Shown piece by piece: positions 25,007 to 43,347 of a DNA stretch of 55,726 nucleotides. Origin of the DNA: Yinghuangia soli (GTDB lineage: Bacteria; Actinomycetota; Actinomycetes; Streptomycetales; Streptomycetaceae). Under the pieces are notes generated by a model that saw only the letters and a program-made list of their open reading frames with translations, ran no database searches and was not told where the DNA came from. Each line of letters begins with the position of its first letter. Position 1 is the first letter of the stretch. The stretch is from the NCBI RefSeq assembly GCF_021502675.1, contig NZ_JAKFHA010000006.1:288127-343852 (forward strand), in the 5' to 3' direction. A program made the position numbers and the translations under genes.

Positions 25007-25377
25007 ACAGGCCTCCCTTCGGGTCACCCTGACCTCTCTCAGGATGGCAACCGCAGGGTCCATGGGGGACCGCTTTGGGCAACTCTCCCTGTGCTCATCC
25101 TTGTTGAGGTCGTTGACCCGATGCTCTGCCGAGTCGCCGCCTGGGCCTTGAAACCGGCCACGCCCATGATCGCGGGCGCGGCCTACCCCGATCCCGCCGT
25201 CGTGAAGAACCTGCGACCCGCGTGAAGCGGCACCGCCAGGGGCTTCATCTGCAGCACCGAAGCAGGGCAGCCCGAGCTTGTGAGGGCCTTGGGGTCTTTG
25301 GGGCGCCGCCGCCCGGACAGGGCGGCGGCGCGTCACTGCGCCGGGTCTGCTGATGCGCGGTGGCTAGAGTCGGACGA
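25007..25377. other. Intergenic region with the first interspersed repeat
   Basis: About 370 bases between the divergent DUF6879 operon and the 154-residue gene. The left part must hold the promoter of the leftward operon, but I see no convincing -35/-10 pair. The right part contains repeat copy A with its hairpin and, at 25365-25370, a TAGAGT box just before the next gene. Confidence 0.6.
25190..25331 (+). repeat. Interspersed repeat, copy A
   Basis: First of four related units downstream of hemB. It contains AGCGGCACCG, the shared core CCCGAGCTTG (25271-25280) and a 12-bp hairpin GCGCCGCCGCCC / GGGCGGCGGCGC (25303-25331). Read rightward in the frame of base 25190 it translates, after one TGA, into a peptide with CSTEAGQPEL, matching copies B and C without indels. 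Confidence 0.8.
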
Positions 25378-25842
25378 ATGACGCGCCACCCAATCGACAG
25401 TGCTGGTCCTTTGGCACGCCAGGTCTGCAGCAGACTTGCACCGTCCGGCCCTGAAGCGGCGCTGGGGCAGATCCTCCACATTGTGCGGACGTACCAGGCT
25501 CTCGAATTCGACGTTGCCGAGATCGGCGACGCCGACGGCTTCCTGTTTCAGTACGGCGGCAACGTGCTGGACGTCGGGGCACCCTTCGCACTGAGCTTCG
25601 TACGGCAACTTGAGCAGGTCGACGCGGACGGCGAGTTCGTGGCGTTCTTCCAGGTCGGCTTCGCGTTCAAGTTCGCCATGGACGCCGACCTCAAGGGCCT
25701 GCAGAACTCGCACGACTGGTGGTTCCGGGGCCAGACGCAGCCGTTCGACGAATGGCTCGCGAAGGTGTCCGAGGATCGCGTCTGGCCGCTTGTCCGCGAC
25801 CGCGGGCCGTCGCGCTTCGACATCGTGTACGGGCAAGTCTGA
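25378..25842 (+). CDS. Hypothetical 154-residue protein
   Basis: A soluble protein with an acidic pI tendency. It has an N-terminal helix region, an alternating pattern TYQALEFDVAEIGDADGFLFQYGG (about 40-63), FALSFVRQLEQVD (about 73-85), FVAFFQVGFAFKFAMD (about 90-105) and a Trp-rich HDWWFRGQTQPFDEWL (about 115-130). I do not recognise the family. The ATG at 25378 was chosen because TAGAGT (25365-25370) ends seven bases before it, which fits a leaderless mRNA; no Shine-Dalgarno sequence is present for this or for the GTG at 25360. It is followed by a strong hairpin and lies between repeat copies A and B. Confidence 0.7.
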   Translation: MTRHPIDSAGPLARQVCSRLAPSGPEAALGQILHIVRTYQALEFDVAEIGDADGFLFQYGGNVLDVGAPFALSFVRQLEQVDADGEFVAFFQVGFAFKFAMDADLKGLQNSHDWWFRGQTQPFDEWLAKVSEDRVWPLVRDRGPSRFDIVYGQV

Positions 25843-25870
25843 ACGTCGTCGGTCGAAGCAGGTGTCCCAT

Positions 25871-25899
25871 GCGCGGCGCTGCCTCGGGCAGCGCCGCGC
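25871..25899 (+). terminator. Terminator of the hypothetical gene
   Basis: Perfect 13-bp stem GCGCGGCGCTGCC / GGCAGCGCCGCGC with a TCG loop, 29 bases after the stop codon. Confidence 0.85.
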
Positions 25900-25900
25900 A

Positions 25901-26021
25901 GAACCTTGGCTGTTCGTTCGGGGACTCGCCTGCAGCACCGAAACAGGGCAGCCCGAGCTTGCGAGGGCCTTTGGCTCTTTAGCGCGCCGCCGCCCGGACG
26001 GGCGGCGGCGCAACGTCTCGC
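25901..26021 (+). repeat. Interspersed repeat, copy B
   Basis: Core CCCGAGCTTG at 25942-25951 and hairpin GCGCCGCCGCCC / GGGCGGCGGCGC at 25984-26011. It reads in the same peptide frame as copies A and C (CSTETGQPELARAF) and is followed by ACGTCTCGC, also present after copy C. Confidence 0.8.
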
Positions 26022-26087
26022 CGCCGGCTTCGGGGCTGACTCCCCTTAGCTCGCAGGTCGTTGAACTGCCGCGCCCGGACGACCTCC

Positions 26088-26239
26088 GATCCGGCGGTCG
26101 TGGGCGACCTGCGATGGGCATGGAGCGGCACCGTTTGGGGACTCGCCTGCAGTACCGAAGCAGGGCAGCCCGAGCTTGCGAGGGCCTTTGAGTCCTTGGG
26201 GCGCCGCCGCCCGGGGAGGGCGGCGGCGTAACGTCTCGC
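26088..26239 (+). repeat. Interspersed repeat, copy C
   Basis: The most complete unit: core CCCGAGCTTG at 26169-26178 and hairpin CGCCGCCGCCC / GGGCGGCGGCG at 26202-26228. Its frame is open from 26088 (GDLRWAWSGTVWGLACSTEA...) to a TAA directly after the hairpin. Confidence 0.8.
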
Positions 26240-26249
26240 GGCCGTGGAC

Positions 26250-26330
26250 GACCTTCTATGGGCGTGGATCGGCACCGTTTCGGGACTCGTCGGCGGTCCC
26301 GAAACAAGGGGACCCGAGCTTGCGAGGTCC
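26250..26330 (+). repeat. Interspersed repeat, copy D (partial, no hairpin)
   Basis: Carries TGGATCGGCACCGTTT and the core CCCGAGCTTG (26313-26322). It keeps the peptide frame (WAWIGTVSGL...GPELARSV) and ends in TAG next to the hemB stop. It lacks the hairpin. Confidence 0.7.
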
Positions 26331-26332
26331 GT

Positions 26333-27331
26333 TTAGTGGAGTTTGCGGGCGGCTTCGGTGGCCCAGTAGGTGAGGATGCTGCTTGCGCCGGCGCGGCGGA
26401 TGCTGGTCAGGGTTTCCATGATGACGCGGTCGCGGTCGATCCAGCCGTTGGCGGCGGCGGCTTCAACCATCGCGTACTCGCCGCTGACCTGGTACGCGGC
26501 GACCGGAACGTGGACCTCGTCGGCAATGCGGCGGACGATGTCGAGGTAGGACATCGCCGGCTTCACCATGACCATGTCGGCGCCCTCGGCGATGTCCAGG
26601 AGGACCTCGCGGAGCGACTCGTCGGCATTCGCCGGGTCCTGCTGGTACGTCATGCGGTCGCCCTGGAGGGTCGACTCCACTGCCTCGCGGAACGGGCCGT
26701 AGAAGCCGCTCGCGTACTTGGCGCTGTAGGCGAGGATCGAGGTGTCGGTGTGGCCTGCGGCATCCAAGGCCCGGCGGACGTGGCCGACCTGGCCGTCCAT
26801 CATGCCGCTCGGGCCGAGCATGTGGGCGCCCGCCTCGGCCTGGACGATGGCCATCTCGGCGTAGCGCGCGAGGGTGGCGTCGTTGTCGACCGTGCCGTCC
26901 TCGCGCAGCACGCCGCAGTGGCCGTGGTCGGTGAACTCGTCGAGGCAGAGGTCCGACATGATCACGGTCGCGTCGCCCACCTCGGACGCGACGTCGCGGA
27001 GCGCGACCTGCAGGATGCCGTCGGGGTCCGTCCCTGCCGTGCCGCAGGCGTCCTTGGCGGACGGGATCCCGAACAGCATCAGGCCGCCCACACCGAGGGA
27101 AACGGCCTCGTGGGCGGCTTTGCGCAGCGTGTCGCGGGTGTGCTGGACGACGCCCGGCATGGACGAGATCGGGATCGGTTCGGCCGCGCCCTCGCGGACG
27201 AACAGCGGCAGGATCAGGTCCGCGGGGTGCAGCCGGGTCTCCGCGACCAGACGGCGCACCGCCGGGGTCCGGCGCAGCCTCCTCGGTCGAACCAGAGGGA
27301 ACCCGCCGGACCCTGACGATGCGTCAGTCAT
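26333..27331 (-). CDS. hemB: Delta-aminolevulinic acid dehydratase (porphobilinogen synthase)
   Basis: A 332-residue enzyme that condenses two 5-aminolevulinates to porphobilinogen in tetrapyrrole synthesis. The two active-site lysines lie in [14 protein letters not shown] (about 200) and [14 protein letters not shown] (about 255). The metal region reads [14 protein letters not shown], with two of the three cysteines of zinc-type enzymes, a mixed form common in actinobacteria. The ATG at 27331 lies four bases after the hemD stop; GGAGGAAGG at the end of hemD may serve it. It is the last gene of the rex-hemACDB operon, whose transcription ends within or beyond the repeat tract downstream. Confidence 0.95.
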
Positions 27332-28943: not shown

Positions 28944-29902
28944 GGGACGCGCTCCCCCATAAGACCGGCGGCACCCCGGGCGAGCATCTCTGCGGCCAAT
29001 TCGCGGCCGAGGGATGCTGCCTCGTCGAGGGGTCCGGTGGCGGACAACCGCACGCTGTGGGAGCCGTCGCCGTTCGCGACGACCGCCCGCAGGTACAGCT
29101 CGGTGACCTCCTCGCCGTCGGACTCTCCCACGGACACGTCCGCGAGAGCGCCCACCGGAGCCGAGCAGCCGGCTTCCAGTTCGGCGAGCAGCATGCGCTC
29201 GGCGAGCACGGCGGCCCGGGTGTCCGGGTCGTCGAGCACGGCGAGCAGTTCGACGAGTGCCGCGTCCGTGGACACGCACTCGACGGCCAGCGCCCCTTGA
29301 CCCGGGGCCGGCAGCATTTGGAGCGGGTCGAGGACCTCGGTGGCCTCGTCCGCACGGCCGAGACGGGCCAGGCCCGCCTTGGCGAGGACGACCGCGTCGA
29401 GCTCCCCGGACGTCACGTACCCGATGCGGGTGTCGACGTTGCCGCGGATCGGCACGATCTCGTGGCCCAGGCCCAGCGCGCGCAACTGCGCGGCGCGGCG
29501 CGGCGAACCGGTGCCGATCCGCGAGCCGGCGGGCAGTTCGCCGAGCGTCAGGCCGTCGCGGGCGACCAGCGCGTCGCGCGGGTCCTGGCGCGGCGGTACG
29601 GCGGCCAGGGTGAGGCCCTCGGGCTCGGCGGTGGGCAGGTCCTTGAGCGAGTGCACCGCGAAGTCGATGCTCCCGTCCAGGAGTGCGTCGCGCAGCGCGG
29701 AGACGAAGACGCCCGTGCCGCCGATCTGCGCCAGGTGCTCGCGCGAGGTGTCGCCGTACGTGGTGATCTCCACCAGCTCGACCTGACGGCCGGTCAGCTT
29801 GGTGAGCGCCTCGGCGACATGGCCGGACTGGGCCATCGCCAGCGCGCTGCGCCGGGTGCCGAGCCGCAGCGGAGCCTCGGCGGCGTGCGATGCCTCGGTC
29901 AT
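28940..29902 (-). CDS. hemC: Hydroxymethylbilane synthase (porphobilinogen deaminase)
   Basis: A 320-residue enzyme that polymerises four porphobilinogens into hydroxymethylbilane. Visible landmarks are [13 protein letters not shown] (13-25), the catalytic Asp80 in [14 protein letters not shown], the basic [14 protein letters not shown] (130-143) and the dipyrromethane-cofactor Cys246 in [11 protein letters not shown]. Length and order are normal. The start ATG overlaps the hemA stop (ATGA) and its own stop overlaps the hemD start, so hemA, hemC and hemD are coupled in translation. Confidence 0.96.
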
Positions 29903-31317
29903 GCCGCACCTTCCTCTCCGGCGGCCTGCGCCGGGATGCCGGGCACGTCCGCGCCCAGCACCTGCGCGAAGTCGATGTCGCCACTGCCCGGGTCGCCGGC
30001 CGTGTCGCCGGCCGGCAGGTCGGCGCGGCTGACCGCGGCCATCGGGCCCGGGCCCAGGTCGAACAGGGTGCGCAGGGCCTCGGCGTACGACGCCCCGCCC
30101 GGCTCGCCGGCCAGCTGCTTGACCCGCACCGTCGGCGCGTGCAGCAGCTTGTCCACGATACGGCGGATGGTCAGCTCGACCTCGGCGCGCTCCTTGGCGG
30201 CCAGGTCCGGGGTACGCCCGGCCAGGCGCTCCAGCTCGGCGCGCACCACGTCGGCGGCCATCGCGCGCAGCGCCACGACCGTCGGGGTGACCACCTGTGC
30301 GCGCTGCGCGGCGGCGAACTCGGCGACCTCGTCGCCGACCAGGCGGCGTACGACGTCGACATCGGCGGTGCCCGAGGCGCCCGAGCCGACGTCGGCGAGG
30401 AGTTCCAGGTCGACCAGGTGCACGCCGTCCATGCCGCGCACCGCGGGGTCGACGTCGCGCGGCAGCGCCAGGTCGATCAGCACCAGCGGGCGCTCGGTGC
30501 CGCGCTCGCGGCGCGCCGCGAGGACCGCCTCGACCTCGGCCGCGGTGATGACCAGGCCGGTCGCGCCGGTACAGGAGATCACCAGGTCCGCGGCGGACAG
30601 CGCGTCGGGCAGCGCGGTCATCGGCACGGCCCGGCCGCCGACCTGGTCAGCGAGGTGCTCGGCGCGCTCGTACGTGCGGTTCGTGATGGCGATGTGGCCC
30701 GCGCCCTGGCGCTGCAGGGTGGTCGCGGCCAGCGCGCTCATCGAGCCCGCCCCGACCACCAGCGTCCGGGTGCCGCCCACCGGCCCGGCGGCCAGCTCGG
30801 CCTGTTCGAGGCCGACGGTCACCAGCGACTGCCCGGCGCGGTCGATGTCGGTCTCGCTGTGTGCGCGCTTGCCGACCCGCAGCGCCTGCTGCGCCAGGTC
30901 GTTGAGCACGCGGCCCGCGGTGTCGTACTCCTGCGCGAGCGCAAGTGCGGTCTTCAGCTGGCCAAGGATCTGGCCCTCGCCGACGACCATCGAGTCGAGG
31001 CCGCACGCCACCGAGAACAGGTGGTGCACCGCCCGCTCTTCGTAGTGCACGTACAGGTGCGGGGTCAGCTCTTCGATGCCGACGCCGGTGTGCTGCGCGA
31101 GCAGCCGGGACAGGTCGGCGACGCCGCCGTGGAAGCGGTCCACGTCGGCGTACAGCTCGACCCGGTTGCAGGTGGAGAGCAGCAGCGACTCCGCGACCGG
31201 TTCGGCGGCCGCGACGTCCTGCAGCAACTTGGCCTGCGCGTCACCGGATACGGCGACGCGCTCCAACAGGCTGACCGGCGCGGTGCGGTGGCTCAGCCCG
31301 ACGACGAGAACACTCAT
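29899..31317 (-). CDS. hemA: Glutamyl-tRNA reductase
   Basis: A 472-residue enzyme that reduces glutamyl-tRNA to glutamate-1-semialdehyde with NADPH, the first committed step of C5-pathway heme synthesis. Residues 1-150 form the catalytic domain with the thioester Cys50 in [11 protein letters not shown]. The NADPH domain has [15 protein letters not shown] (about 178-192) and [14 protein letters not shown]. The C-terminal dimerisation helices follow, with an extra Gly/Pro/Asp-rich tail. The ATG at 31317 was chosen because GAGGTG precedes it and because a 26-codon ORF ends exactly on it (ATGA). It is the second large gene of the Rex-controlled operon. Confidence 0.96.
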
Positions 31318-31394
31318 GCCGCACCTCGCTGGCGCTCGGCGCCGCATTCGCGAAATGCATCCTCTTGTTGGATTCGCTCGCTGCGCTCGCTCAT
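31314..31394 (-). CDS. 26-residue mini-ORF ending on the hemA start codon
   Basis: ATG at 31394, stop TGA at 31316-31314 sharing ATGA with hemA. The peptide starts MSERSERIQQEDAF, is highly charged and ends in Gly-Ala-Ala. A 23-codon ORF with related DNA and peptide (MSER...RRDAFGE, ending in Ala-Ala) sits in the identical position before acuC at 41934-42005. No Shine-Dalgarno sequence is obvious for the mini-ORF itself, while its 3' end contains the GAGGTG used by hemA. It may act as a leader peptide or coupling element; I know of no described family for it. Confidence 0.5.
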   Translation of the reverse strand: MSERSERIQQEDAFRECGAERQRGAA

Positions 31395-31440
31395 CGCGCC
31401 ACCAAGGACGGAACGGAACTGACGTGCGTGGTCCGGACGT

Positions 31441-32199
31441 TCACGCCGGCATCACCTCGGGCAGGTCTCCGGCCGGGCCGCCCGCCGGGGAGGCGGCAGG
31501 CTGCGCGGCGGCAGGAAGGTCGGGGGCAGCGGGGTCGACAGCCGACTTGCGCTGCTCGTGGAAGGCCAGGATCTGCAGCTCTATCGACAGATCGACCTTG
31601 CGCACGTCGACGCCCTCAGGGACGGAGAGGACGGTCGGGGCGAAGTTCAGAATGCTCGTGATACCGGCCGCGACGAGCCGGTCGCACACGCCCTGCGCGG
31701 CAGGCGCAGGGGTGGTGATGACCCCGATCGAGACGTGGTCGTCGCGCACGATCTGCTCGAGGTCGTCCATGTGCCGCACGACCATCCCGGCTATGCGCTG
31801 GCCCGCGACCGCGCGGTCGGCATCGAGCAGGGCCGCGACGCGGAACCCGCGGGACGCGAACCCGCCGTAGTTGGCTAGTGCGTGCCCCAGGTTGCCGATG
31901 CCGATGATGGCGACCGGCCAGTCCTGGGTCAGCCCGAGCTCGCGGGAGATCTGGTAGACGAGGTACTCGACGTCGTAGCCGACTCCGCGGGTGCCATAGG
32001 AGCCCAGGTACGAAAGGTCCTTGCGCAGCTTCGCGGAGTTGACCCCGGCAGCGGCCGCGAGTTCCTCGGAGGACACGGTCGGCACGCCGCGCTCCGAGAG
32101 CGCGCTCAGCGCCCGGAGGTACAGCGGGAGCCGCGCCACCGTCGCCTCGGGAATACCGCGTCCCCGGTGCGCCGGTCGCTCGGTACGGCCTGTAGCCAC
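31441..32199 (-). CDS. rex: Redox-sensing transcriptional repressor Rex
   Basis: A 252-residue repressor that binds DNA when NADH is low. The winged helix is at about 5-80 (IPEATVARLPLYLRALSAL, AAGVNSAKLRKDLSYLGSYGTRGVGYDV). The Rossmann domain follows with the NAD(H)-binding IIGIGNLGHALANYGGF (about 96-112). A Pro/Ala-rich tail (about 225-252) is an add-on beyond the usual 210-230 residues. The GTG at 32199 follows AGGAG. It heads the rex-hemACDB operon, and a Rex operator with an overlapping promoter lies about 50 bases upstream, so autoregulation is expected, as shown for S. coelicolor. Confidence 0.96.
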   Translation of the reverse strand: MATGRTERPAHRGRGIPEATVARLPLYLRALSALSERGVPTVSSEELAAAAGVNSAKLRKDLSYLGSYGTRGVGYDVEYLVYQISRELGLTQDWPVAIIGIGNLGHALANYGGFASRGFRVAALLDADRAVAGQRIAGMVVRHMDDLEQIVRDDHVSIGVITTPAPAAQGVCDRLVAAGITSILNFAPTVLSVPEGVDVRKVDLSIELQILAFHEQRKSAVDPAAPDLPAAAQPAASPAGGPAGDLPEVMPA

Positions 32200-32236
32200 G
32201 GTGCTCCTGTGGGTGGGACCTGCGGTTTCGAATGCC

Positions 32237-32265
32237 AGGTTAGGCTTTTGTGAACGTGTGCACAA
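32237..32265 (-). promoter_or_regulatory. rex promoter with Rex operator
   Basis: The 18-base TTGTGAACGTGTGCACAA (32248-32265) differs in one base from the palindromic Rex operator TTGTGAA-N4-TTCACAA. On the minus strand TTGTGC (32265-32260), a 17-base spacer and TAACCT (32242-32237) form a promoter, so the operator covers the -35 box and most of the spacer. NADH would relieve repression. Confidence 0.88.
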
Positions 32266-32359
32266 AGCTGATGTCCGTTTTGTGTACCTGCCGTGACATG
32301 CATCACGCGCCGGTTCCCGGATCTCCCTGTGAGGTCGCTCACACAAGGTGACGCGCCAC

Positions 32360-36409: not shown

Positions 36410-36448
36410 TCCGCACCGCCGCAAGCACGATGCGGACCAGGTAGGAAG

Positions 36449-36541
36449 ACATGTGAACGCGGTGGGGGGGGGGGGCGGCCCGCGCCGCGGGGGCCCCCGG
36501 CCGCGTCACCCCCCGGCCCCCCCACCACCGCGTTCACATGT
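36449..36541. terminator. Long bidirectional hairpin with a GC-homopolymer core
   Basis: Perfect 17-bp arms (36449-36465 and 36525-36541) enclose about 59 bases made mostly of G and C runs. It lies between the convergent rsbN and acyltransferase genes, where a bidirectional terminator is expected. The arms end in GGTGG / CCACC and continue as homopolymers, so the true stem tip is probably shorter and the central bases misread. Confidence 0.65.
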
Positions 36542-36565
36542 CGTCGCGAGAGCCTCGCGCAGGCG

Positions 36566-40749: not shown

Positions 40750-41937
40750 TCAGATGTCGAACAGAGGGTCGAGTCCGTGCGCCGGGAAGACCGCCCGCCG
40801 GGTCGCGAGGACCGCCTGGTCGAGCCGGTCGGCCGGGTCGTAGCCGCCCGCGAACGGGCGGAAGACCGGGGTGCGGCCGTCGGTCATGCGGTACGGCCCC
40901 TGGTCGCCGGTCCGGATCCGGACCTGCTCGCGCCACTCGAACGGCAGCTCGGTCTCCGGGTCGATGGGCGCGTGCGCGGCCTCGGCGACCAGGTGCGTCC
41001 AGGTACGCGGCACCACGTCGGTCGCCGCGTAACCGCCGCCGCCGGTGGCGATCCAGCGGCCGCCGCAGAACCGGTGCGCGAGGTCGTGCAGGGCGACCTG
41101 GGCCAGGCGCTGCCCGTCCACGGTCATGCCGAGGTGCGCGAGCGGGTCCTCGATGTGCGTGTCGGCGCCGTGCTGGGTGACGATCGCGTCCGGCCGGAAG
41201 GCCTCGACCAGCGGCGGCACGACGGCGTGGAACGCGCGCAGCCAGCCGGCGTCCGCGATGCCGGGCGGCAGGGCGACGTTGACCGCGGTGCCCTCGGCGT
41301 CCGGGCCGCCGGTCTCGTCCGGGAACCCGGTGCCGGGGTAGAGGAAGCGCGGGCTCTCGTGCAGCGAAATGGTGAGCACGCGCGGGTCGTTCCAGAACGC
41401 GGTCTGCACGCCGTCGCCGTGGTGCACGTCGATGTCCACGTAGACGACGCGCTCGGCGCCGAGTTCGAGGAGCCGGGCGATGGCGAGCGCGGTGTCGTTG
41501 TAGACGCAGAACCCGGCCGCGGCGGACGGCATGGCGTGGTGCAGGCCGCCCGCGAAGTTGACCGCGTGCGGGGCGGCGCCGGACCAGACCGCGTCGGCGG
41601 CGGCCAGCGAGCCGCCCGCGATCAGGGCGGACACCTCGTGCATGTTCTTGAACGCCGGGGTGTCGTCGGTGCCGATGCCGCACGAGCCGTCCGCACACGA
41701 AGGATCGGCACCCGCGGCGCGGACCGCGGCGATGTAGTCGGCGGTATGCACGAGTTGCAGCTGCTCGTCGGTGGCGGCTGCCGGGGCGACGACGGCGAGG
41801 CCGTCGGCTCGGTCCAGCCCGTAGGCGCGCACCAGGTCGATGGTGAGCTGCAGGCGGATCGGCTTCATCGGGTGCCAGGCACCGAAGTCGTAGCCGGTCA
41901 TCCGGTCGTCCCACAGGAGTTGCACAGCCTGGCTCAC
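40750..41937 (-). CDS. acuC: AcuC-type acetoin utilisation deacetylase (class I HDAC family)
   Basis: A 395-residue zinc-dependent deacetylase of the class I histone deacetylase fold. The active-site pair is His133-His134 (GGLHHAMPS). Metal ligands are Asp170 and His172 in VDIDVHHGDGVQ plus a later Asp in QHGADTHIEDPL. A catalytic Tyr is expected in ATGGGGYAATDV (about 300). In Bacillus AcuC deacetylates acetyl-CoA synthetase; protein lysine deacetylation is the likely role here. The GTG at 41937 overlaps the stop of a 23-codon mini-ORF (GTGA), and GAGGTGG precedes it. It is part of a leftward row after the MFS gene. Confidence 0.93.
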   Translation of the reverse strand: MSQAVQLLWDDRMTGYDFGAWHPMKPIRLQLTIDLVRAYGLDRADGLAVVAPAAATDEQLQLVHTADYIAAVRAAGADPSCADGSCGIGTDDTPAFKNMHEVSALIAGGSLAAADAVWSGAAPHAVNFAGGLHHAMPSAAAGFCVYNDTALAIARLLELGAERVVYVDIDVHHGDGVQTAFWNDPRVLTISLHESPRFLYPGTGFPDETGGPDAEGTAVNVALPPGIADAGWLRAFHAVVPPLVEAFRPDAIVTQHGADTHIEDPLAHLGMTVDGQRLAQVALHDLAHRFCGGRWIATGGGGYAATDVVPRTWTHLVAEAAHAPIDPETELPFEWREQVRIRTGDQGPYRMTDGRTPVFRPFAGGYDPADRLDQAVLATRRAVFPAHGLDPLFDI

Positions 41938-42005
41938 GCTGCCACCTCGCTTTGCCGGGCCCGGCGTTCGCCGAACGCGTCCCTCCTGCTGGTTCGCTCG
42001 CTCAC
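41934..42005 (-). CDS. 23-residue mini-ORF ending on the acuC start codon
   Basis: GTG at 42005, stop TGA at 41936-41934 sharing GTGA with acuC. The peptide starts MSER, has RRDAFGERRARQ in the centre and ends in Val-Ala-Ala. Both the peptide and the DNA (TGAGCGAGCG at the start, AGCGAGGTG before the next gene) match the mini-ORF before hemA. It begins ten bases after the MFS stop, so it links MFS and acuC in one transcript. The function is unknown; coupling or leader-type control is inferred. Confidence 0.5.
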   Translation of the reverse strand: MSERTSRRDAFGERRARQSEVAA

Positions 42006-42015
42006 GATCAGGAGG

Positions 42016-43263
42016 CTACCGGTCGCGCACCGTCTCCCGGCTGTTGCCGTGACCGGCTTCACCCTGCGGCGCGAACGCGCGCGCCAGGGGCAGCACGGCG
42101 AGCACCAGCACGAGGGGCAGGGCCATCGCGGCCCGGAAGCCGGCCAGGTCGCCGACCACCCCGACGAGCGGCGTGCCGATCAGGAAGCCGGCGTAGTTGA
42201 AGAGGTTGAGGCGGGCGATGGCAGTGTCGGGGTCGTGCGGGCTGGTCGCCGCGCCGGCCGCGAAGGTCTGCGGGACGAGGACGCAGATGCCCAGGCCGAG
42301 AACCGTGAAGCCGGCCAGGGCCACCGCGGCGCCGGGGGCGGCGACCACGACGGCGAAGCCGGCCGCGGCGGTGAGCGCGCCGGCGCGGACCACCGGGAGG
42401 GCGCCCCAGCGGCGTACGCCCAGGTCGCCGATGCTGCGGCCGACCAGTGCGGTGACCATGTAGACGAGGTACGGCAGGGCCGTGTTGTCGTCCATGTGCT
42501 GCACGTCCTCGGCGTACACCGCGCCCCAGCTGGAGACCGCGGAGTCGCCGATGTAGACGAACGTCATGACCGCGCACAGCGGCAGGATCGTGCGCCACGG
42601 CACAGCCGCCGCGGCCCCCGGCGCGTCGACGGCGGGGCGTTCGGGGCGGGTGGGCAGGTAGCGCCGGCCGATCAGGAACGCGGCGGGTGCGGTGATCGCC
42701 GCGCTGATCGCGTACATGACGACCAGGGCGATCTCTTTGTGGTCCGCGAAGGTGGCCAGCCCGGCGCCCGCGATGCCGCCGAGGCTCCAGGCGGCGTGGA
42801 AGCCGTTCATGACGCTGCGGCCCTGCCGGGCCTGGATGCCCACGGCCTGCATGTTCATGGTGGCGTCGACGGCGCCGAGTGCGAGGCCGAACAGCACCAG
42901 CACGGCCGCGAGTTGCCAGACCTGGTCGCCGGCGCCGACACCGATCACGGACGCACACACCACCGGCTGGGCGATGCGCAGCACGTGGTGGCTGCCGTAG
43001 CGGGCGGCGAGCTTCTCGGCGGCCGCGCTGCCGAGACCGGCAATGATCGGTACCAGCGAGAGGACGAGGGTGAGGCCGCCGTCGCCGAGTCCGTAGCGGT
43101 CCTGGATCGCCGGGACCCGGGTGACCAGCACCGCGAACGAGGCGCCCTGGATGAGGAAGCAGGCCAGTACGGCGAGCCTGGCGCGGCGGACGGCGCCGTC
43201 GTCCGGCCGCCCGGGTATCGGGGCGGCGGCTCCGGCGGAGTCCTGAGGTTCGGTGGCCTGCAT
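42016..43263 (-). CDS. MFS transporter
   Basis: A 415-residue major facilitator with twelve predicted helices in two halves (about 27-200 and 222-400) separated by a Pro/Ala-rich loop near 205. Helices include LAVLACFLIQGASFAVLVTR, GGLTLVLSLVPIIAGLGSAA and AVVLVLFGLALGAVDATMNMQAV. The DATMN motif and the GRSVMNGFHAAWSLGG loop resemble fucose-permease/YbjJ-type carriers. The substrate is unknown. The ATG at 43263 is preferred to an upstream one at 43293; TAACGT lies eight bases before it, suggesting a leaderless start. It is the first gene of the row MFS, mini-ORF, acuC, phosphatase-like. Confidence 0.9.
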   Translation of the reverse strand: MQATEPQDSAGAAAPIPGRPDDGAVRRARLAVLACFLIQGASFAVLVTRVPAIQDRYGLGDGGLTLVLSLVPIIAGLGSAAAEKLAARYGSHHVLRIAQPVVCASVIGVGAGDQVWQLAAVLVLFGLALGAVDATMNMQAVGIQARQGRSVMNGFHAAWSLGGIAGAGLATFADHKEIALVVMYAISAAITAPAAFLIGRRYLPTRPERPAVDAPGAAAAVPWRTILPLCAVMTFVYIGDSAVSSWGAVYAEDVQHMDDNTALPYLVYMVTALVGRSIGDLGVRRWGALPVVRAGALTAAAGFAVVVAAPGAAVALAGFTVLGLGICVLVPQTFAAGAATSPHDPDTAIARLNLFNYAGFLIGTPLVGVVGDLAGFRAAMALPLVLVLAVLPLARAFAPQGEAGHGNSRETVRDR

Positions 43264-43347
43264 GGGCCGGGACGTTACTGGCGGGTTCGGCAACTGACGA
43301 GAGGTGCGGACGATCTTTTGCCGGACCGTGGTGCAGCGGTCCCGCCC

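Follow-up and report, generated by a model that had tools for sequence, protein, structure and literature searches.

The two short open reading frames that end on the start codons of hemA and acuC in a 55,726-nucleotide stretch of the Yinghuangia soli genome (the window) represent two copies of a repeat that is dispersed through the genome and apparently mobile, and do not form a sensor leader of two operons. The best explanation, which we hold with high confidence, is that the repeat, about 77 bp long, inserts at start codons and carries a mini-ORF coupled to the gene behind it. The geometry of the copies, the filled and empty sites, the tandem arrays, the retention of frame and the drift of the peptide were all observed directly.

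The genes and element copies given with coordinates in this paragraph are on the reverse strand. The copy before hemA (31318 to 31394) is MIRU-like and measures 77 bp from start codon to start codon; the ATG of hemA follows directly (31317 to 31315), and the 26-codon mini-ORF of this copy (31314 to 31394) has its stop TGA inside the ATGA of hemA. The hemA gene itself (29899 to 31317) encodes a glutamyl-tRNA reductase of 472 amino acids with the Pfam domains GlutR_N, Shikimate_DH and GlutR_dimer. Upstream lies the gene of a rex-like redox repressor (31441 to 32346; Pfam Put_DNA-bind_N and CoA_binding), which we take to be rex, and a linking ORF of 17 codons, VNVRTTHVSSVPSLVAR (31391 to 31444), leads from its stop (GTGA) to the start of the mini-ORF (ATGA). 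The MIRU-like copy before acuC (41938 to 42005) is a 68-bp form followed by the acuC start GTG at 41937; its 23-codon mini-ORF, VSERTSRRDAFGERRARQSEVAA (41934 to 42005), has its stop inside the GTGA of an acuC-like gene of the histone-deacetylase family (40750 to 41937; 395 amino acids; Pfam Hist_deacetyl). An MFS transporter gene (42016 to 43293; Pfam MFS_1) lies upstream, and its stop codon is 10 nt ahead of the acuC mini-ORF. The sequence confirms both mini-ORFs, with the overlaps at hemA and acuC, as originally predicted. Two other repeats were observed in the window: three to four diverged direct repeats of 100 to 143 nt (families D1 and D2) at 25188 to 26337, and an inverted repeat at 36445 to 36545 with a G run and 29-nt arms that are 93% complementary and 43 nt apart.

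The likeness between the DNA of the two mini-ORFs, also part of the original prediction, goes beyond chance and reflects a single repeat. In the 9.7-Mb genome the pattern RTGAGCGAGCG has 30 occurrences and the reversed pattern 7, and 10 of the 30 places proved on reading to be copies of one element. When an 83-nt consensus was compared with the genome by BLAST, 11 copies came up at E<1e-9 (best E 1.8e-32), together with three short copies at E<0.003 and, at E 0.2, the divergent acuC copy. These 15 copies are among 42 matches with E up to 10; the remaining 27 (E 0.008 or worse) were left out of the copy count, and five of them that were inspected (L045-L049) look like other sequence. A 16th, short copy (L070, identical with L017) came from pattern searches, which brings the total to 16 copies of the repeat with short and divergent ones included (L031-L044, L053, L070). 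Fifteen of the 16 lie directly ahead of a gene start. The exception, L038, is truncated, lacks its right end and continues in frame into its ORF; the fused protein begins MSERSERINRGMRFANAA. Among the 15 copies that have a right end, the start codon read there is ATG in 14 and GTG at acuC, and RTGAGY is present in 13. A Shine-Dalgarno-like GAGGNGG precedes the new start codon, and judging by this arrangement both the start codon and that motif seem to be supplied by the element. The genes behind the copies, as named by eye, include those for an MFS transporter, a protease, an FtsW-like protein, an oxidoreductase, an acyl-AMP ligase, a PspA-like protein, a pirin and an ABC ATPase, and no functional theme was apparent among them on inspection by eye.

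In order to compare filled with empty sites, we examined orthologs of the downstream genes in two genomes of the same genus (G001 and G002). The queries were fragments of the proteins encoded behind 12 of the 16 copies (those of L032, L038, L043 and L070 were not included); the ortholog start of L031 could not be aligned, and the orthologs of L070 were taken from other element searches. Of the 12 loci with an informative ortholog, 11 lack the element in one or both of these genomes, and every empty start is RTGAGY. Both genomes lack the element at hemA (L153 in G001, L150 in G002) and at acuC (L149 in G001, L160 in G002). At the ftsW-like gene the empty sequence GTGAGC|AACACG corresponds to GTGAGC[element]ATGAGT|AACACG when filled. 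The empty start is GTGAGC there as well as at the oxidoreductase and acyl-AMP-ligase loci; when these three loci are filled, the old GTG opens the mini-ORF and a new ATGAGY stands behind the element. The gene start is altered from GTG to ATG at L033, L034 and L035. Filled and empty sites within one genus thus indicate a dispersed element, and together with the coupled geometry they bear out, in kind, the original wording of a mobile or recurrent translational-coupling leader. A minisatellite that spreads when RTGAGC-rich gene starts recombine, with no transposition involved, would also leave RTGAGY at both ends and produce tandem arrays, and we know of no mobilising enzyme for the element, which counts in favour of such a process. 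It is nevertheless unlikely, given precise single-copy differences at many unlinked loci of one genus where only a 6-bp target is shared.

The start-codon-inserting repeat would act as follows. It would insert just 3' of an RTGAGY start-codon context, and the old start codon of the target would turn into that of the mini-ORF (here of 26 and 23 codons). The right end would supply the Shine-Dalgarno-like GAGGNGG and a new gene start, mostly ATGAGY, that the mini-ORF stop overlaps (ATGA, -4). Ribosomes starting at the old start would terminate at the new one and re-initiate, so that an insertion would leave expression almost unchanged and the element could spread. Translation of the mini-ORF, re-initiation, the nearly neutral effect and the action of a mobilising enzyme are presumed here.

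The same geometry recurs in other genomes. A search of this and related genomes had first been proposed. The left-end motif TGAGCGAGCN{2,3}GCGAGCGAAYC gave 130 matches, spread over 26 of the 394 actinomycete genomes and 15 of the 138 genera scanned; the reversed motif had no match in the 394 genomes. We read 30 loci out of the 130 matches, drawn from the 26 genomes, with the motif as the sole selection criterion; three of them (L195, L211 and L221) are places that had already been met in other searches. Each of the 30 opens on a start codon at its left end, from which a mini-ORF of 8 to 35 codons runs to a stop that overlaps the next start. When the next ORF is required to encode at least 120 amino acids, 29 of the 30 unique instances are coupled, and the single uncoupled one is an array-internal unit with another unit behind it. 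Coupling in the other two frames is found in 0 and 3 of the 30, and background RTGAGY sites are coupled in 20 of 445 cases (1 of 61 within the window). In a larger set, 116 candidate right ends were reduced to 67 unique gene-adjacent copies by dropping repeats of one context, array-internal units and weak matches; the fused L038, which has no right end, and L044, matched at the left end only, are outside this set. The RTGA overlap ends 65 of the 67. This number includes L043, which is coupled when read from the element start at distance 26 and not from another candidate left start at distance 55, and the two exceptions are L144, which is fused to its gene, and L143, whose left start is lost. 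The mini-ORF of L044 is out of frame, with its stop 5 nt past the gene start.

These results refute a chance likeness of GC-rich, low-complexity sequence, to which we give virtually no credence. The window does hold 12 occurrences of TGAGCGAGCG with at most one mismatch against a mean of 14.25 in shuffles, as chance would predict. The excess of RTGAGCGAGCG, whole-element matches down to the E value of the best BLAST copy, the lack of reversed matches and the coupling of 29 of 30 loci against 20 of 445 are all contrary to it.

Frame is kept where a gene follows, while the peptide and the middle of the element drift. Fourteen of the 15 gene-adjacent copies with a length other than 77 are in frame; with L044 added the count is 14 of 16, for which p is 1.2e-5, or 0.02 if the 68-bp forms are counted once. 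Array-internal units are less constrained, with only one of seven non-77 units in frame. Two arrays have shifted units that run together into ORFs of 75 and 49 codons, still ending on the ATGA of the gene; in array L121 the first ORF ends 51 nt before the gene. Compensating single-base indels cause the middle of the element to be read in two frames across copies. The hemA copy shows one compensating pair that the alignment finds in other copies too, and on reading a second one near the right end, where AGCGAGG is shifted by one base.

The recurrent ends of the peptide, MSERSER or MSELASES at the N-terminus and in many copies AERSE at the C-terminus, could be taken as signs of a conserved family of small proteins with a functional peptide. 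The frames of both ends are already fixed by the start and stop overlaps, the lengths range from 8 to 35 codons, and the right-end peptides vary between taxa. We reject a function of the peptide because the element middle is translated in two frames, which makes such a family highly improbable; for the same reason the DAF shared by the two mini-ORFs does not stand as a conserved peptide motif.

We also considered structure in the transcript. RNAalifold on 16 copies of the genus gave a covariation term of +0.49 with a double change in 1 of 12 pairs, and thus no covariation support; five single-strand folds were unremarkable (z from -1.9 to +0.6), and Rfam had no match in the window at the gathering threshold. 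A central hairpin spotted by eye, a candidate attenuator, was discarded, being unsupported by RNAalifold and by the z scores. The conserved, covarying RNA structure that would mark a structured cis-regulatory leader was not found in these analyses. It was originally suggested that the mini-ORFs sense translation state; a regulatory leader of this kind, responding to translation state or amino-acid supply, would control hemA and acuC. The coupled geometry agrees with it, and so does the unbroken chain from rex to hemA considered below. However, the element is absent from hemA and acuC in both same-genus genomes, the downstream genes have no common theme by eye, the peptide middle lies in two frames and no RNA fold is conserved, and we therefore regard such a leader as very unlikely and abandon the sensor.

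What deserves follow-up in the leader idea is the coupling between rex and hemA. The chain of overlaps from rex to hemA is unbroken in all 30 genomes read (37 had a hemA match): 16 have a direct RTGA overlap, and 14 are linked via one or two mini-ORFs of 12 to 40 codons. Element-like units are present in four of these 14 junctions (G000, G007, G014 and G045), and the linking mini-ORFs of the other ten look unrelated and vary in sequence and length. G001 has a 17-codon ORF, without the element, at the same place. Coupling at hemA thus seems to be under selection irrespective of the sequence that makes the link. At acuC no consistent overlap chain was found across 30 loci; there the absence of the element elsewhere was judged by reading 70 nt, since a motif test missed even the acuC copy of Y. 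soli itself. The average identity of the hemA copy is 85-89% to ten further copies from its genus, against 55-74% to the element copies that precede hemA in three other genera; being closest to copies within the genus, it points to spread inside the genus and not to an old hemA leader. The hemA copy of G045 is 72% identical to copies of its own genome (n=7) versus 75-76% to units from other families, which argues against simple recent spread there.

Head-to-tail tandem units with a period of 77 nt (81 minus the 4-nt overlap) are found in G037, G027, G045 and elsewhere, and such arrays are to be expected if the right end itself serves as a target. Of 61 genomes searched with an E cut-off of 1e-3, 25 gave matches, several of them single weak matches that on reading are not the element (L085, L087-L094). 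The left end, the middle and the right end of the units all tend to vary from taxon to taxon. A separate pattern scan, covering seven stretches, identified Kutzneria and Pseudonocardia as hosts, along with MAGs of Streptosporangiaceae, Nocardiopsaceae and Blastococcus. A MIRU-like, start-codon-inserting mini-ORF element is present in several actinomycete families outside Mycobacterium. One family, f28 (L199-L205, L222-L224), has units that share the left end but have other right ends, of AKRVRP or EGRP type, and L200 has a tandem period of 80 nt. Units also precede the same genes in different genera, namely genes that by eye are argJ- (L072/L146), nuoI- (L082/L119) and eccC-like (L084/L123), as if their conserved RTGAGY starts were repeated targets.

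A wider reading, which we offer tentatively as a possibility, is a class-wide actinomycete superfamily of start-codon-targeted mobile mini-ORFs that remodels operon coupling and has MIRU as its mycobacterial branch. The target would then be the translation-initiation region (Shine-Dalgarno sequence plus RTGAGY), the right end would be a portable Shine-Dalgarno sequence with a start codon, and selection would retain only those insertions that close the ribosome path. The rex-hemA junction, coupled in every genome read, would be a place where the linking mini-ORF has been repeatedly replaced.

Whatever the breadth of the family, insertion of the element has a practical consequence for annotation, since it alters gene starts and offers false upstream ones, as at hemA. 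Within the element, the ATG at window position 31347 shares the frame of hemA, and automatic annotation may call the hemA start too early there.

The original prediction knew of no described family, and here it missed the mycobacterial MIRU, which a passage of a 2025 review (PMC12548453) describes in these very terms: MIRUs seem to be mobile, enter at start codons and are coupled at -4 spacing, with a probably minimal effect on target expression. That passage cites Supply et al. 1997. According to passages of two further sources, MIRU units of 77 bp and 53 bp occur in tandem (PMC4213456, PMC2453075); MIRU loci are described as serving standard tuberculosis typing. Our search of the open-access literature found no report of such elements outside mycobacteria, and searches there with the element peptide (MSERSER) and DNA strings gave nothing relevant. 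The passage of PMC12548453 says only that MIRUs appear mobile; here the exact product of insertion can be read from filled and empty sites in a single genus outside Mycobacterium, which makes it possible to test the target rule, the frame rule and the mobilising mechanism in other species.

We also looked for MIRU itself. A MIRU motif matched 13 of the 394 genomes, all from one genus of another family (g24), and none of its matches was in the Y. soli genome. From this motif and an RRF neighbour that matches entry 1wqf, presumably M. tuberculosis, we infer that g24 is Mycobacterium. Among 20 mycobacterium-like loci read, seven have a short ORF ending in an RTGA overlap with the next gene, three of these seven being one site before frr. 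Two of the loci (L176 and L194) have RTGAGY at both ends, and L194 carries tandem 53-bp units. The right ends of the element and of mycobacterial units are alike (GCCGAGCGCAGCGAGG / GCAGAGCGCAGCGATG); in four comparisons of the element with two mycobacterial units, 16, 425, 194 and 161 of 1000 shuffles reach the score, and the alignment is only suggestive.

Other known systems resemble the element in part. Rickettsia palindromic elements are small repeats tolerated in a coding context by keeping the frame. They insert inside ORFs and add peptide, whereas the element described here inserts at start codons and forms a separate ORF. Insertion 3' of a short fixed target, as in IS200/IS605-type or REP/RAYT elements, would fit RTGAGC|element, but no conserved structure was found in the transcript strand of the element. 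MIRU is similar on four counts: it is a short dispersed repeat (16 copies in Y. soli), inserts at start codons with a -4 overlap (29 of 30 motif-chosen and 65 of 67 gene-adjacent copies here), forms tandem units of about 77 bp (the period-77 arrays of G037, G027 and G045) and is apparently mobile (11 of 12 informative loci with an empty site). The differences are a left end encoding MSRAGDD in MIRU versus MSERSER or MSELASES in the element, hosts that are mycobacterial for MIRU and lie outside Mycobacterium for the element, and the fixed RTGAGY context of the element, which is absent from the passages on MIRU that we consulted. The element works like MIRU, and we classify it as a MIRU-like variant and not as MIRU itself.
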